A stretch of DNA of 22,329 nucleotides, taken from positions 1 through 22,329 of IMG/VR virus record IMGVR_UViG_3300032322_002047. One strand, given 5' to 3'. The notes under the pieces are model-generated. The model was not told where the DNA came from. It ran no database searches and worked only from the letters and a program-made list of their open reading frames with translations. The stretch is from a virus. Positions 5,558-14,306 of this stretch are shown here, one piece after another; positions within the stretch are counted from its first letter, which is position 1; each line of letters begins with the position of its first letter. The translations under genes and the position numbers were made by a program.

Positions 5558-6253
5558 ATGCCTTATCTTTTTGTTGATTACGAGCAAGGCGCCGGAGGAG
5601 AATTTTTTTGTGCCAATCTAAGTAAGAGCCCGCAGTGTGTTGAATTGATTGCTACTACCTATTCAAACGGTCGAACAAAAATTAACGATTTATTTGATCA
5701 GGAGTGGCTAAAGTTAGAACCTGTTTTAAAAACTATACCTACTAATCCAGTATTATATGATGTGGTTCCTACACATCGATTTACCAATATTGCCCAACAA
5801 CATCTAGGATCAATACTATCAATAAGAATAGCCAATCCAGTAGACAAAAATTACTGGCGTTTTTTAAAATATCAGCAAGAGATCAAGGTGTTACGAACAA
5901 CTGAACCAACAGATAAATATTTTCTAGGTTATTTAAAAATACTACAAAAACAATATAACAATTACAATTTTGTTAAAAAGGTCAAAAAAGGAATGGATAA
6001 TTTGACGCTTATATTACTAGCAAAAAATATCGAGCCTACCGAAGAAAATAAACAAATATACCTAAAAAAAATATACAATAGCTACACCACAGAACCAGAT
6101 TTTGAATACAATCTTGTCATCAAGTACGAAGATTTATTTGTCAATCCGGCCAAGGTGAAACAACAACTATTTGACGTGTTCGGGATTGAAATTTTAACTG
6201 ATTGGTTGTTGGCCTTTGAAAAAAAATATGAAACATATATTTCCGAGACTTGA
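5558..6253 (+). CDS. Sulfotransferase-like protein (accessory cassette, copy 1)
   Basis: 231 residues, Lys/Asn/Ile-rich and encoded by AT-rich DNA unlike gp47. The N-terminus MPYLFVDYEQGAGGEFFCAN looks like a first beta strand followed by a glycine-rich loop where sulfotransferases hold the PAPS 5'-phosphosulfate. Near the C-terminus, NLVIKYEDLFVNPAKVKQQL then FDVFGIEI matches the (Y)EDL..NP......L..FLGI pattern of the sulfotransferase fold. The classical catalytic His is not identifiable, so activity is uncertain. The last 26 bases overlap the next gene. Two other proteins in this window (7730-8605 and 12524-13543) share the same plan: a glycine loop near the N-terminus and a helix-NP-helix-like segment near the C-terminus. 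The function (sulfation of a glycan, lipid or other acceptor) is inference. Confidence 0.6.
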   Translation: MPYLFVDYEQGAGGEFFCANLSKSPQCVELIATTYSNGRTKINDLFDQEWLKLEPVLKTIPTNPVLYDVVPTHRFTNIAQQHLGSILSIRIANPVDKNYWRFLKYQQEIKVLRTTEPTDKYFLGYLKILQKQYNNYNFVKKVKKGMDNLTLILLAKNIEPTEENKQIYLKKIYNSYTTEPDFEYNLVIKYEDLFVNPAKVKQQLFDVFGIEILTDWLLAFEKKYETYISET

Positions 6254-7073
6254 TATTATGATTGCATATGCTTGCAATATATCCTGCGCCGGATGTATTA
6301 GTTTGAGTGACCATAATCGAGTTGGCATTGAACCGTTAAATCAACTAGAAACGGACATTGATAATTGGGCAAATGTTATTGAGCCGCAAGTTATTACCAT
6401 ATTTGGAGGGGAACCATGTATCCACCCATCGTTGATAGAAATTTGTCAGCATGTTAGAAAATCTTGGCCCAACTCGCTGATTAGATTGATTACTAACGGT
6501 TATCTGTTAGGAAATTTTGACCCCGCTGTTTGGTTCACGCTAGGCAATTTTGAAATACAAGTTAGTGTACATAGAAAAGATCACGAATCATTAATTAATC
6601 ACCAGGTAAAACAAATTTTAATACAGCAGGATCATTGGCAAACAATTAAACACCACTCTAACGGTCATAAACAAATTGAGTGGAAACACAATGATTTTAG
6701 CATTTATAAAAGCATTTTCAAAGATTTTATAGTGCCTTATAAAAAAATCAACAAGGAAATATTAGCGTGGAATAGCAATCCAGCTGATGCTCACAAAATA
6801 TGCGGAGCTCCTAACACTCCTATTTTATATAAAGGACTCCTGTACAAATGCCCACCAGTCGCAAACACAATAGATTTAACTAACAACAACTGGTTTGGGT
6901 ATAGCCCATATAGTATAGATTCAAATCTTGAAGAATTTATTGCCGGAATTAACAAACCAGAAACGGTATGTGGGCAATGCCCAGATCTTCAACAGGCAGT
7001 AATTATTAATCACTTTGATACTAAAAATGTCCTTGTCAAACAAAAAAATCTTAGTAAGCGGATGTGGCCTTAG
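6228..7073 (+). CDS. Radical SAM protein with SPASM-like C-terminal cysteines
   Basis: 281 residues from ATG 6228; the earlier in-frame TTG at 6216 only extends the overlap with the preceding gene. The radical SAM [4Fe-4S] motif CNISCAGC gives cysteines 16, 20 and 23, and the SAM-binding FGGEP is at 59-63. A second cysteine set, C192, C208, C248 and C251 (ICGAP, YKCPP, VCGQCPD), resembles an auxiliary SPASM/twitch cluster as in peptide- or sugar-modifying radical SAM enzymes. The substrate is unknown. No precursor peptide gene is evident beside it. It overlaps the gene before by 26 bases and the gene after by about 47, so it is coupled within an AT-rich four-gene cassette inserted between gp47 and gp46. 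Confidence 0.82.
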   Translation: MKHIFPRLDIMIAYACNISCAGCISLSDHNRVGIEPLNQLETDIDNWANVIEPQVITIFGGEPCIHPSLIEICQHVRKSWPNSLIRLITNGYLLGNFDPAVWFTLGNFEIQVSVHRKDHESLINHQVKQILIQQDHWQTIKHHSNGHKQIEWKHNDFSIYKSIFKDFIVPYKKINKEILAWNSNPADAHKICGAPNTPILYKGLLYKCPPVANTIDLTNNNWFGYSPYSIDSNLEEFIAGINKPETVCGQCPDLQQAVIINHFDTKNVLVKQKNLSKRMWP

Positions 7074-10385: not shown

Positions 10386-11501
10386 ATGAAATTTGATTTC
10401 AATGACATCGACGAGTACCAAATTGAGATTACAACATACTGTAATGCTGCCTGCCCCCAATGTCCTCGCAATAATTCAGGCACAGGTATTAACCCACACA
10501 TGCCACTGGTGCACTTGTCACAGTCTGCAATTGATCAAGCGTTTGATACCGATTTATGCCAGCGGCTGAGACAGATATTTTTTTGCGGCAGTTATGGTGA
10601 TCCTATAATGCATCCAGATTTTTTGGACATATTGCGAGACTTTAGACGCAAGAGTCCTACCTTATGGTTATATATTCATACCAACGGAGGTGTTCACCCG
10701 CCCAGTTACTGGGCAGAAATTTCGCAAATTATGGCCGGGTATGGACAGATTGACTTTGGCATCGATGGGCTAGAGGACACTTTACATTTGTACAGAAAAA
10801 ATGTAAAATATAATAAAGTTATAGAAAATGCCAAAGCATTTATTTGTGCCGGTGGTCGTGCGCAGTGGAATTTTATTGTGTTCAAACACAACGAACATCA
10901 AGTTGAAAAAGTAAAAGAGTTAGGGCAACAGATGGGATTTTTCAATGTATTAATTAGAAAAACAGGAAGATTTTTTAATCATAGAACTGTAGAAGAAATG
11001 CCCGGGTGGCCAGTAAAAAATGAATATATCCTTGAGCCGCCGATTAATCCCCAATATCGAAATCAAAGTATGCTGTTTTTACCCGAATTAAAAAAACAAT
11101 ATAAAAATTTTAAAGATTATTTTAATACTACAGAAATTAAATGTGATGCTGCAATTGGCGCCAAGGTTACAATCAACGCAGAAGGCCTAGTGTTGCCTTG
11201 TAATTTTTTTAATCATAACCTGTATGATCGTCGATTCTATGAAGATGGAGTTCTTCCTGAGTCAAATCAATTAAGCACAGTCAACGGCAAAAATCAAGTT
11301 AGGCAATTTTTGGAAAGTTACAACTTAGACAGTTTTAATATTAATTTACACAGTTTAGAAGAAATTTTTAGTAGTGCCATGTGGGTTGATTTAGTTAATA
11401 GCTGGAATAAAACATTGACTAATGGTCGATTGTTTGAATGTGCAATGACCTGTGGGTCAAAAATTACTAAAGTATGGGATCAAGGAGGAAGTGTAAGATG
11501 A
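10386..11501 (+). CDS. Radical SAM/SPASM-like protein
   Basis: 371 residues. The N-terminal EITTYCNAACPQCPRN carries the CxxxCxxC cluster motif (C19, C23, C26). The following CGSYGDP (67-73) stands where most family members have GGEP, a variant SAM-binding loop. LWLYIHTNGG (93-102) and FGIDGLED (124-131) fit the radical SAM barrel strands. C-terminal cysteines C253, C272, C352 and C356 (IKCDAAIG, LVLPCNFFNH, FECAMTCG) suggest an auxiliary SPASM-type cluster. The product has no recognisable specific function; SPASM proteins modify peptides, sugars or other small molecules. It starts 20 bases after gp46, and its 3' end holds AGGAGG for the next gene, with an ATGA overlap. AT content rises along the gene relative to gp46. 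Confidence 0.82.
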   Translation: MKFDFNDIDEYQIEITTYCNAACPQCPRNNSGTGINPHMPLVHLSQSAIDQAFDTDLCQRLRQIFFCGSYGDPIMHPDFLDILRDFRRKSPTLWLYIHTNGGVHPPSYWAEISQIMAGYGQIDFGIDGLEDTLHLYRKNVKYNKVIENAKAFICAGGRAQWNFIVFKHNEHQVEKVKELGQQMGFFNVLIRKTGRFFNHRTVEEMPGWPVKNEYILEPPINPQYRNQSMLFLPELKKQYKNFKDYFNTTEIKCDAAIGAKVTINAEGLVLPCNFFNHNLYDRRFYEDGVLPESNQLSTVNGKNQVRQFLESYNLDSFNINLHSLEEIFSSAMWVDLVNSWNKTLTNGRLFECAMTCGSKITKVWDQGGSVR

Positions 11502-12123: not shown

Positions 12124-12552
12124 ATGGTATGGCTTTATGAGCAACAACAAATCAACGATTTACCCGAAGATTGTGTCGGTTTTGTCTATTTGATTACAAA
12201 TAACAAAACCGGCAGGCGGTACATTGGAAAGAAACTAGCAAAATTCAGTCGAACAACATACCGGGTAGTAAAATTAAAAAACGGCAACAAGAAACGCAAG
12301 AAAATACGTGGCAAAGTAGAATCAGACTGGCAGACATACTACGGCAGCAACGATCAACTCAACAAAGACATCCTGGCGCTGGGCGCTGACAACTTCACTC
12401 GCGAAATCATATACTACTGTAGGTCCAAGGCTGAATGCAGTTACGTAGAAGCTAGAGAACAATTTAATCATAGAGTATTAGAATCAGACGACTGGTACAA
12501 CGGACAAATAGTGTGTCGTATCCATGGCAGTCATATCAAAGGAAAATTGTAA
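12124..12552 (+). CDS. GIY-YIG nuclease (Seg-like, possible homing endonuclease)
   Basis: 142 residues. The N-terminus GFVYLITNNKTGRRYIGKK (19-37) is the GIY-YIG pair in the form VYLI/YIG. A basic loop (KNGNKKRKKIRGK) and ESDWQTYYGSN follow, then a C-terminal conserved acidic region, KAECSYVEAREQF. This single-domain form is frequent in T4-like phages and resembles Seg-type free-standing homing nucleases, though a separate DNA-binding domain is not visible. It lies 44 bases after the SDR gene, and its 3' end overlaps the next gene by 29 bases if that gene's earliest ATG is used. The G+C content of the middle part is higher than in its immediate neighbours. No clear ribosome-binding site precedes its ATG. 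Confidence 0.8.
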   Translation: MVWLYEQQQINDLPEDCVGFVYLITNNKTGRRYIGKKLAKFSRTTYRVVKLKNGNKKRKKIRGKVESDWQTYYGSNDQLNKDILALGADNFTREIIYYCRSKAECSYVEAREQFNHRVLESDDWYNGQIVCRIHGSHIKGKL

Positions 12553-13543
12553 AAAGTATATGGTATTGATTTTGACCGACCCAGGCGTTGGAGGCACATT
12601 TTTAACATGGAGCCTGCACTACCTTGCTGGACATACCAAGTATTTCCATGCCAGATCAAATGCCTGGGTTGACTTAATTAATAATCCTATTACTGATATC
12701 AATGCACATAAATTCCAACCAACACAACCAGTAACCATTAACGAAGTTTGTGAATTTTTGCAAAAAATATTAGGTGTGGAGCCTGAGGGATTTCATTCGT
12801 TTTATTTTCATAATCTTCAAGATCAGACCGATTACTCTTCGTCAGTTCATCAACCAACCATTGATGTTGTAAAAGATATATTGCCATGCTTTTCCAAAGT
12901 TGTAATTGTTAACAACACTCATCCGCTGTATAATACATCATTCAACAGTAGAGCGTTGACACCAAAATTTTGTAATTCACAACAATTAAATTTAACATTT
13001 GAAGAGCAACATGCCGATTTTATTGAATATTTTTTTAAAGACAGCCTAACAAGTTGGCAAGAAAAAAATTTAAACAATTGCTGGGATCACCGTGAGTTTT
13101 TGGCTTTGAACCTAAGACCGTACCAGCAAACAAATATGATTTCAAATATTAATTTAAAGCAACCACATTATTTGCTCAACACATTTGAATTGTACAACCT
13201 ACTAGATCAAACCATCGATCAGTTGTTTGATTTTTTAGAAATCAAAATTGATAAAACTCGCAGAACGCACTGGGCAGAAATTTACAATAGTTGGAAAAAA
13301 TTACACATTAGAAGATTAAAATTTGTTTGGTACTTTGATACTATTGTTGATTATATTGTCAACGGCTACCATATGGACTTATTAAATTTTGATCTTGATT
13401 TAGTGCAAGAGGCCACGATACAACATTCTTTAATCTACAAACACAACTTGAATCTAAAAACATTTCAACTAGAAAAATTCATCAATACCAAACAGTTACA
13501 CGATCTTCTTGAGCCAAACATACATTCACTAGGCAAGTACTAA
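12524..13543 (+). CDS. Sulfotransferase-like protein (accessory cassette, copy 3)
   Basis: 339 residues from ATG 12524, or 327 from ATG 12560, which places the glycine loop nearer the N-terminus as in its two relatives; neither start has a convincing ribosome-binding site. The N-terminal VLILTDPGVGGTFLTWSLHY is a strand-loop-helix resembling the PAPS-binding P-loop of sulfotransferases (SGTT[FW]L). Near the C-terminus, LLNTFELYNLLDQTIDQLFD then FLEIKID stands where family members have the '.EDL......l..FLgI' segment, followed by a Trp-containing helix (NSWKKLHIRRLKF). The middle is poorly conserved. It is the last gene before the structured non-coding region. Sulfotransferase fold is a moderate guess; the acceptor is unknown. 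Confidence 0.5.
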   Translation: MAVISKENCKKYMVLILTDPGVGGTFLTWSLHYLAGHTKYFHARSNAWVDLINNPITDINAHKFQPTQPVTINEVCEFLQKILGVEPEGFHSFYFHNLQDQTDYSSSVHQPTIDVVKDILPCFSKVVIVNNTHPLYNTSFNSRALTPKFCNSQQLNLTFEEQHADFIEYFFKDSLTSWQEKNLNNCWDHREFLALNLRPYQQTNMISNINLKQPHYLLNTFELYNLLDQTIDQLFDFLEIKIDKTRRTHWAEIYNSWKKLHIRRLKFVWYFDTIVDYIVNGYHMDLLNFDLDLVQEATIQHSLIYKHNLNLKTFQLEKFINTKQLHDLLEPNIHSLGKY

Positions 13544-13970
13544 TTCAACAACATAGGCAACTCAACTGACTCTGTGCTAGGCGACATGGCCTAGCCCCAT
13601 CGAGGAACGGTGCAATACCCGGTCTGGAAACGTTTGGGCGTCAAAGGCAATTGCTAACTTAAGGCAACAAATGGTTTGAGCTCTGTGAAAAAGACACAAC
13701 TCATGCTCGCGGGACTTGGATTTATCATCGGGTCACCGGGGTTCCGTTGATATGTGAAGCTTGAGTAGGGGGTACCGGTCAACCGCCTCCGCCTAGGAAA
13801 CTACAATCTCATTATGATAAATGACAGCTACAACTCGGATAATGTAGACGTCAGTTCACCGTGCATACGGTGAATTGTGACCGCATAATCTGGATAATGC
13901 AAGAGAAAGACAATCATGTGTGAGCGCAAGCGAAACACATAGATTAGCGCAGCTAATCTCTTGATGTCAC
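13544..13970 (+). ncRNA. Candidate large structured non-coding RNA, family unknown
   Basis: No coding frame of note lies in these 427 bases, but perfect or near-perfect stems fill them. H1: 13576-13582 with 13589-13595 (7 bp). H2: 13677-13680/13700-13703 plus 13684-13687/13695-13698. H3: 13713-13719/13728-13734 (7 bp, with G-U). H4: 13768-13772/13786-13790 inside GTAG/CTAC (13765-13768, 13801-13804; one base is shared, so these compete there). H5: 13809-13813/13820-13824. H6: 13828-13832/13843-13847. H7: 13855-13862/13867-13874 (8 bp, GCAT loop), extended by GTCA/TGAC. H8: 13883-13886/13897-13900. H9: 13916-13921/13935-13940, with a GA/GAA internal loop and a GC-closed GCAA tetraloop. H10: 13941-13948/13952-13959 (8 bp). 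GCAA is a GNRA loop only on the plus strand, and H3 needs G-U pairs there, so plus is favoured. I see no tRNA T-arm, tmRNA tag frame, group I core or U-run terminator. Ends are approximate. Confidence 0.6.
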
Positions 13971-14306
13971 TCAGAATGTATCAGGCCAATCACGAAACAA
14001 GGCATGCTGGATGTCACCTGCAACAAACTGATTGAAGCTTTTGTGTTTTGTTTCGAGTTCACCTTCCAATGGTGCTACTCGTTTGAAAGCTGAGTCCATT
14101 TGACCCATGTCCCGGAACTCCATCAAGATCATCCATTCCGGCATGTCTGCTATGCTACGGAATCCCATTTTACATCTGGTAATTCTGTAAGTTTCCATCT
14201 TGCCTTCTGACACCAAATGATCAAAGAAACTCTTCATTCCTGTGACCCAGTCTAAGTCCGAAATATCGCCTTCTTTGTTTGCCCAAATTGTGTATAAGTC
14301 TGCCAT
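13971..14306 (-). CDS. Small conserved protein, possibly DUF6614-like
   Basis: 111 residues, last gene of the minus-strand operon. MADLYTIWANKEGDISDLDW, GKMETYRITRCKMGF, PEWMILMEFRDMGQMDSAF and a terminal FRDWPDTF suggest a small alpha/beta dimeric ferredoxin-like protein. The pattern '.EGYR.TR.K.GF....(E)...M.E..D..Q...AF' reminds me of DUF6614 proteins of marine bacteria, a match I cannot check. The function is unknown. Its ATG overlaps the previous gene's TAA by one base (TAATG). Its stop lies 12 bases from the last hairpin of the structured non-coding region, with which it is convergent. Confidence 0.72.
   Translation of the reverse strand: MADLYTIWANKEGDISDLDWVTGMKSFFDHLVSEGKMETYRITRCKMGFRSIADMPEWMILMEFRDMGQMDSAFKRVAPLEGELETKHKSFNQFVAGDIQHALFRDWPDTF

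Follow-up and report, generated by a model that had tools for sequence, protein, structure and literature searches.

What occupies a gap of 427 bases between convergent genes of a phage? The gap covers positions 13544 to 13970 of IMG/VR record IMGVR_UViG_3300032322_002047, a viral sequence whose 22,329 bases together make up the window analysed here. An earlier note, made from the letters alone, had singled it out as a hairpin-dense interval without a plausible gene and as a candidate undescribed structured phage RNA. There is indeed no open reading frame of at least 50 amino acids (aa) between these positions, the longest in the window copy having 42 aa, and neither ARAGORN nor Rfam detects a transfer RNA (tRNA) or transfer-messenger RNA (tmRNA) in the window. 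The placement is also as described, with a + strand gene that ends at 13543 and a convergent - strand operon that begins with the DUF6614 gene. Comparison of homologous sequences confirms the interval as a genuine, strongly covarying, + strand non-coding RNA with a covarying pseudoknot. Its most informative property, absent from the earlier account, is a pair of identical heptamers that change together.

Covariation, strand and coding potential

The four hairpins named in the earlier note are all present: 7 bp at 13576/13595, 8 bp at 13855/13874, 6 bp at 13916/13940 (GCAA loop, GA/GAA internal loop) and 8 bp at 13941/13959. Folding of the single sequence is no better than chance (minimum free energy z = -1.33 on the + strand and -0.76 on the - strand, with 11/100 and 21/100 shuffles, respectively, folding as well as the interval), so that the hairpins by themselves would be too little to establish a structured RNA. 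The case is made by homologues. Loci bearing the interval were found in IMG/VR through a DUF6614 protein search and then an exact conserved 21-mer, and removal of sequences of at least 97% identity left 117 full-length, non-redundant homologues of the form seen in the window (type I).

An alignment of 60 diverse sequences (A1) is the basis of an 88-pair structure, which was partly picked from these same data and is therefore favoured by its scores: 94.4% of 5156 cells are standard pairs, 58 of the 88 pairs show changes on both sides compared with 36.5 after shuffling, and the covariation score is 0.338 against 0.130 ± 0.004 in shuffled alignments and at most 0.070 with partners slid. A tree-based null, our own approximation to R-scape, tested every pair of columns after placing the substitutions anew on a tree. 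Fifteen column pairs reached E < 0.05, ten of these being more than 80% canonical. The P17 pairs 13918/13938, 13919/13937 and 13920/13936 gave E = 0.000 (helix names as in the table below), the P6 pair 13677/13703 had the second-highest score, and 13762/13811 and 13768/13790 were significant as well. The pseudoknot is 90.2% paired, with both-side changes in 6 of its 8 pairs. The stem at 13576/13595 scores 63% in the aligner owing to its variability, and the segment forms a hairpin with 5 bp or more in 117/117 homologues. Compensatory changes are thus abundant within the stems proposed earlier, and the candidate of the earlier note is supported.

Helix cells contain 657 G-U against 69 A-C combinations, and some G-U pairs are near-invariant. 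On this evidence the RNA is read from the + strand, and an RNA of the - strand is ruled out. A protein-coding gene is ruled out too, since length changes ignore the reading frame: homologue lengths modulo 3 are spread evenly (32/43/42), and no conserved peptide frame exists.

Two heptamers that change together

Two repeats of about 25 nt each carry the same heptamer, with the consensus RGAYRAN, and the word varies among phages. In aligned columns, which give the reliable figures, heptamer A equals heptamer B in 116/117 type I sequences and in 100/100 sequences of a sister form (type II, described below); in the sole type I exception, L133, the two agree after an alignment shift. An anchored scan found a 7/7 match in 246 of 251 distinct sequences, a figure that is partly chance because the scan selects the best pair. 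Other words (ACGAAAT, ATGAAG, TGGAAA) occur in more divergent relatives, where the two copies still match over six or seven positions.

Two like-with-like pairs were significant in the tree-based null, 13837/13892 (GG 62, AA 54, AG 1) and 13841/13896 (AA 75, GG 40, CC 1, GA 1). When substitutions were mapped on a tree built without the heptamer columns, each change in A at four positions coincided with an identical substitution in B on that branch (18/18, 9/9, 3/3 and 1/1), a total of about 31 substitutions made in both copies. At a fifth position, 13840/13895, B lacks one change seen in A, and this is the alignment shift of L133. A few background column pairs show a similar same-branch overlap, as is expected of base-paired columns. 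Copying between the repeats is a poor explanation, because the flanks of A and B (ACTC and ATCT) remain distinct throughout.

What might read the heptamers

No column of the RNA tracks the heptamer, nor does any complementary stretch of the molecule vary with it, which makes a partner in cis unlikely; the neighbourhood of the RNA and the phage tmRNAs yielded no partner either. From the sequence comparisons we lean, with moderate confidence, towards a stand-alone, trans-acting phage RNA whose two loops are read by one co-evolving outside partner. The + strand would be transcribed where the gp46/47-SegE run of genes closes, and the P18 hairpin would end the RNA. Its conserved 3' module, which displays two hairpin-like repeats with the same RGAYRAN heptamer, would be combined with a variable 5' scaffold (type I, or Polynucleobacter-1-like in type II). 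The two loops would be read at once by one outside partner, which could be a dimeric protein or a nucleic acid that pairs with each of them, and drift of this partner over time would force both copies to change along. Within this scheme we infer a free RNA, not an element of an untranslated region, and a trans partner for both loops. The RNA is not tied to one neighbour: it usually follows SegE, is separated from SegE by an inserted gene in the window, and has unrelated surroundings in L112 and L085, two divergent relatives. The IS110 bridge RNA is likewise one RNA with two recognition loops, but its loops bind different sites, whereas here the heptamers are the same and no transposase is nearby.

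Several results weigh against such an outside partner. Neither the heptamer nor its complement is enriched in four large phage genomes, at least two of them probably incomplete, and these genomes gave no orthologous complementary sites by nucleotide or protein orthology. Conserved intergenic sequences gave no partner candidate. SegE residues explain at best 29% of the entropy at heptamer position 1, compared with 23% for the DUF6614 control, and the restricted vocabulary of the heptamer suits a protein better than a pairing partner. The options left are a host molecule, a phage protein encoded elsewhere, a phage RNA from an unassembled part or direct contact between the heptamers.

Direct contact, within one RNA or between the subunits of an RNA-only multimer, would place the molecule with the building-block RNAs OLE, ROOL and GOLLD; we regard this as unlikely. 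A contact that demands identical bases, e.g. through symmetric homo-purine pairs, would fit the near absence of mismatched intermediates and the sharing of all changes on the same branch. However, seven like-with-like pairs, G-G and U-U included, would require a parallel arrangement, and we know of no precedent for parallel like-with-like RNA pairing of that length. The RNA is also about half the size of ROOL or GOLLD, and multimers are not directly evidenced. OLE has a wholly different host context and no sequence or model match to the window RNA, but its symmetric like-with-like dimer contacts are a possible analogy for the identical heptamers. In that dimer four A-A pairs form a symmetric contact that is conserved, and GOLLD combines a conserved 3' region with a variable 5' region, as here (PMC12286853).

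We consider it just as unlikely that the heptamers are recognised or cut by an RNA-binding protein or ribonuclease whose sequence preference drifts, possibly the SegE-like GIY-YIG protein, which would be the protein version of the trans-acting scheme. The close linkage of SegE, the vocabulary confined to RGAYRAN and the two copies, which fit a dimer, point this way, but no SegE residue explains heptamer position 1, and in L112 and L085, where the surroundings differ, the RNA occurs with no SegE within three genes.

A cis-acting 3' untranslated element, or an elaborate terminator of the SegE operon without a role in trans, is more improbable still. In most loci the RNA starts about 0-20 nt past the stop codon of the upstream gene and has a terminator-like hairpin at its end, but the gene immediately 5' of it differs between phages, and some 400 nt with a pseudoknot and twin heptamers exceed the needs of termination and leave the matched heptamers unexplained. 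Lastly, site-specific recombinases require matching short cores and homing endonuclease genes adjoin the RNA in some phages, but a DNA-level recombination or homing site with the heptamers as crossover cores is very improbable in view of the RNA-specific G-U signature over the whole interval, the junction in L295, where copy A was lost away from the heptamers, and the lack of consistent inverted arms around the cores.

Relatives, parts and genomic setting

A cmscan of the window against 4227 Rfam families matched the RNA to none at gathering, with GOLLD, ROOL, HEARO, OLE, tmRNA, introns and RNase P included, and a hit to RT-9 (E 5.7, 16.6 bits against a gathering value of 46.1) is due to chance. 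The Rfam and ARAGORN scans rule out tmRNA, tRNA, RNase P, GOLLD, ROOL and OLE as identities; a group I or II intron is likewise rejected, there being no Rfam match and the interval sitting between convergent genes. The earlier note could match the RNA to neither GOLLD nor ROOL and took it to be shorter than both, which it is, at about 400 nt compared with 659 nt for the solved ROOL and more than 800 nt for many GOLLDs. It shares with them the character of a large ornate phage or prophage RNA with pseudoknots and no assigned function; matched heptamers are not reported for GOLLD or ROOL in the searched literature.

The claim that the RNA is undescribed holds with one amendment. No Rfam family matches it, and with RF01718 (Polynucleobacter-1, a model of 141 positions with gathering at 37 bits) there is no match at gathering nor up to E = 10, but RF01718 makes up the 5' domain of a sister form that occurs at this locus. 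Type II loci occupy the same genomic place and have different 5' two thirds joined to the same 3' module, i.e. the GGUACCGG-N-CAACCGCC hairpin, the twin heptamers and the GA hairpin. Type II members L016, L079, L082 and L295 score 75-116 bits with RF01718, and a type I profile (nhmmer) recovers type II L011, L016, L079, L080 and L082 at 50-75 bits. Type II with RF01718 resembles the window locus in having SegE upstream, often DUF6614 downstream, and the whole twin-heptamer module, while the window RNA differs from Polynucleobacter-1 in its 5' scaffold. Since the window RNA has no RF01718 match, we call it a relative and not a member: type I is, by sequence comparison, an undescribed relative of a poorly known orphan RNA, and, judged by Rfam 15 and the searched literature, its form is new. 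Polynucleobacter-1 was rated in 2010 as probably an RNA and probably cis-regulatory, and was recorded in Burkholderiales and in freshwater or estuary samples (Weinberg et al. 2010, PMC2864571). Its model spans the 5' part of type II only, and the twin-heptamer 3' module falls outside the Rfam definition.

We tentatively propose an RNA superfamily in which interchangeable 5' scaffolds are combined with a common 3' recognition module, whose two loops would share an evolvable 7-nt address and either read one partner twice or recognise themselves by like-with-like contacts. A twin-loop evolvable address is, to our knowledge, a principle known for no RNA class. L295 (8274-8600) is a natural single-heptamer variant, a type II RNA without repeat A and the central hairpin that keeps heptamer B (AGATAAT). 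In L315 and L333 the hairpin GGTACCGGACAACCGCC with complementary flanks stands in otherwise unrelated RNA-like surroundings; around this GGUACCGGACAACCGCC hairpin with its pairing flanks no matching heptamers are recognisable, and the two are possibly further scaffold types. Searches elsewhere gave no relatives by blastn among GenBank phages and plasmids, and no RF01718 match in 369 bacterial genomes of one class, an absence that carries no information because the controls gave none there either. The 35 exact matches of the 17-mer GGTACCGGTCAACCGCC in GTDB contigs are due to chance, 0 of them fitting the profile.

Features of the type I RNA and of the genes beside it in the window.
Feature	Position	Strand	Remarks
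SegE-like GIY-YIG protein gene	12124-12552	+	PF19835, E 2.6e-33; usual upstream neighbour of the RNA
339-aa accessory gene	12524-13543	+	between SegE and the RNA in the window phage
Type I structured RNA	13568-13959	+	about 400 nt; first covarying pair to end of last hairpin, not mapped transcript ends
5' domain	13568-13642	+	P1 (13568-70/13640-42) encloses P2, P3 and P4
P2 hairpin	13576-82/13589-95	+	hairpin in 117/117 sequences
P3	13596-99/13635-38	+	P1 and P3 99-100% paired, both-side changes
P4	13604-06/13623-25 and 13608-10/13619-21	+	within P1
P5 hairpin (TTGC/GCAA), conserved loop TAACTTAAG	13651-13667	+	93.7% paired; both-side changes in 3/4 pairs
P6/P7 hairpin, conserved GAAAAAGA loop	13677-13703	+	13677-80/13700-03 and 13684-87/13695-98; 99.6% and 99.1% paired
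P8 hairpin	13710-13738	+	13710-12/13736-38 and 13713-18/13729-34; 99.1% paired, both-side changes in 6/9 pairs
Pseudoknot	13720-13822	+	P8 loop 13720-27 (ATTTATCA) with 13815-22 (TGATAAAT)
P10	13762-13811	+	13762-65/13808-11; encloses hairpin 13768-90 and a variable small hairpin 13794-803
Near-invariant hairpin GGGGGTACCGGTCAACCGCCTCC	13768-90	+	hairpin word common to type I and type II
Repeat unit A	13822-13844	+	TGAC-N7-ACTC-heptamer GGATAAT (13837-43)-G
Central hairpin between repeats A and B	13855-13874	+	98.5% paired
Repeat unit B	13878-13899	+	TGAC-N6-ATCT-heptamer GGATAAT (13892-98)-G
P17 hairpin, GA/GAA internal loop, closing GC pairs	13916-13940	+	95% paired
P18 3'-end hairpin, terminator-like	13941-13959	+	both-side changes in 7/8 pairs
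DUF6614 gene, convergent	13971-14306	-	PF20319; usual downstream neighbour

The RNA belongs to T4-like jumbo phages and is carried by hundreds of environmental contigs. The portal protein of the window has its nearest counterparts in Phosso, Atu_ph07 and PA5oct, which are T4-like jumbo phages, and RNA-bearing contigs reach 346,856 bases, with a single copy of the RNA per large record searched. A SegE-like GIY-YIG gene lies at most three genes from the RNA in 118/135 loci; in 97 it is the gene directly upstream. Five cultured phages with SegE homologues (Melnitz-3, phiM12, ACP17, S-SRM01 and C48C1) have no such RNA, either annotated or as a gap, their next annotated gene beginning within about 150 nt of the SegE homologue, and the linkage may therefore be synteny rather than shared function. 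On the - strand, the scan also gave P18 a terminator score, for the convergent operon.

The product of the 339-aa gene has no PHROG or Pfam match and a P-loop-like start. In other phages the gene lies upstream (+) or downstream (-) of the RNA; being found on either side and in either orientation, it shifts position around the RNA between phages. Homing-endonuclease-like genes (GIY-YIG, HNH-type) lie directly 3' of the RNA in several phages, e.g. L054 and L184, as if the locus were an insertion hot spot for such genes. Further away, the window has two radical-SAM-like genes (6216-7073 and 10386-11501) in a + strand accessory run beside gp46/47-like genes. Two genomes that carry the structured RNA also have, separate from it, predicted permuted tmRNA genes (L240:10821-11310 and L266:17949-18305, with tags ANVNKTVTVSGKNIKFSARSAKEALAV and ANAANDEVFALAA), and in jumbo genome G001 a single cluster holds 27 tRNA/tmRNA predictions. 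A recurring intergenic element some 60 nt long, with the sense sequence GGTTGACC-N17/18-TATAAT and a downstream start region, occurs in L235-L288 (G001-G004) and is common to all four jumbo genomes (e.g. G002:41010-41125 and 40654-40737); judged from its sequence, it is probably an early promoter family of these phages.

Comparison of the two forms shows the Rfam family Polynucleobacter-1 to be, at the level of sequence, a fragment of a larger phage RNA, of which only the 5' piece of one form had been catalogued before. Given that hundreds of environmental jumbo-phage contigs carry it, the RNA is probably important when these phages, a very common group, infect their hosts. The roughly 31 paired identical substitutions are a sharp functional clue of a kind that is rare for orphan RNAs, and the identity of the partner would expose either a new RNA-RNA or RNA-protein recognition in infection or a new mode of RNA self-assembly.
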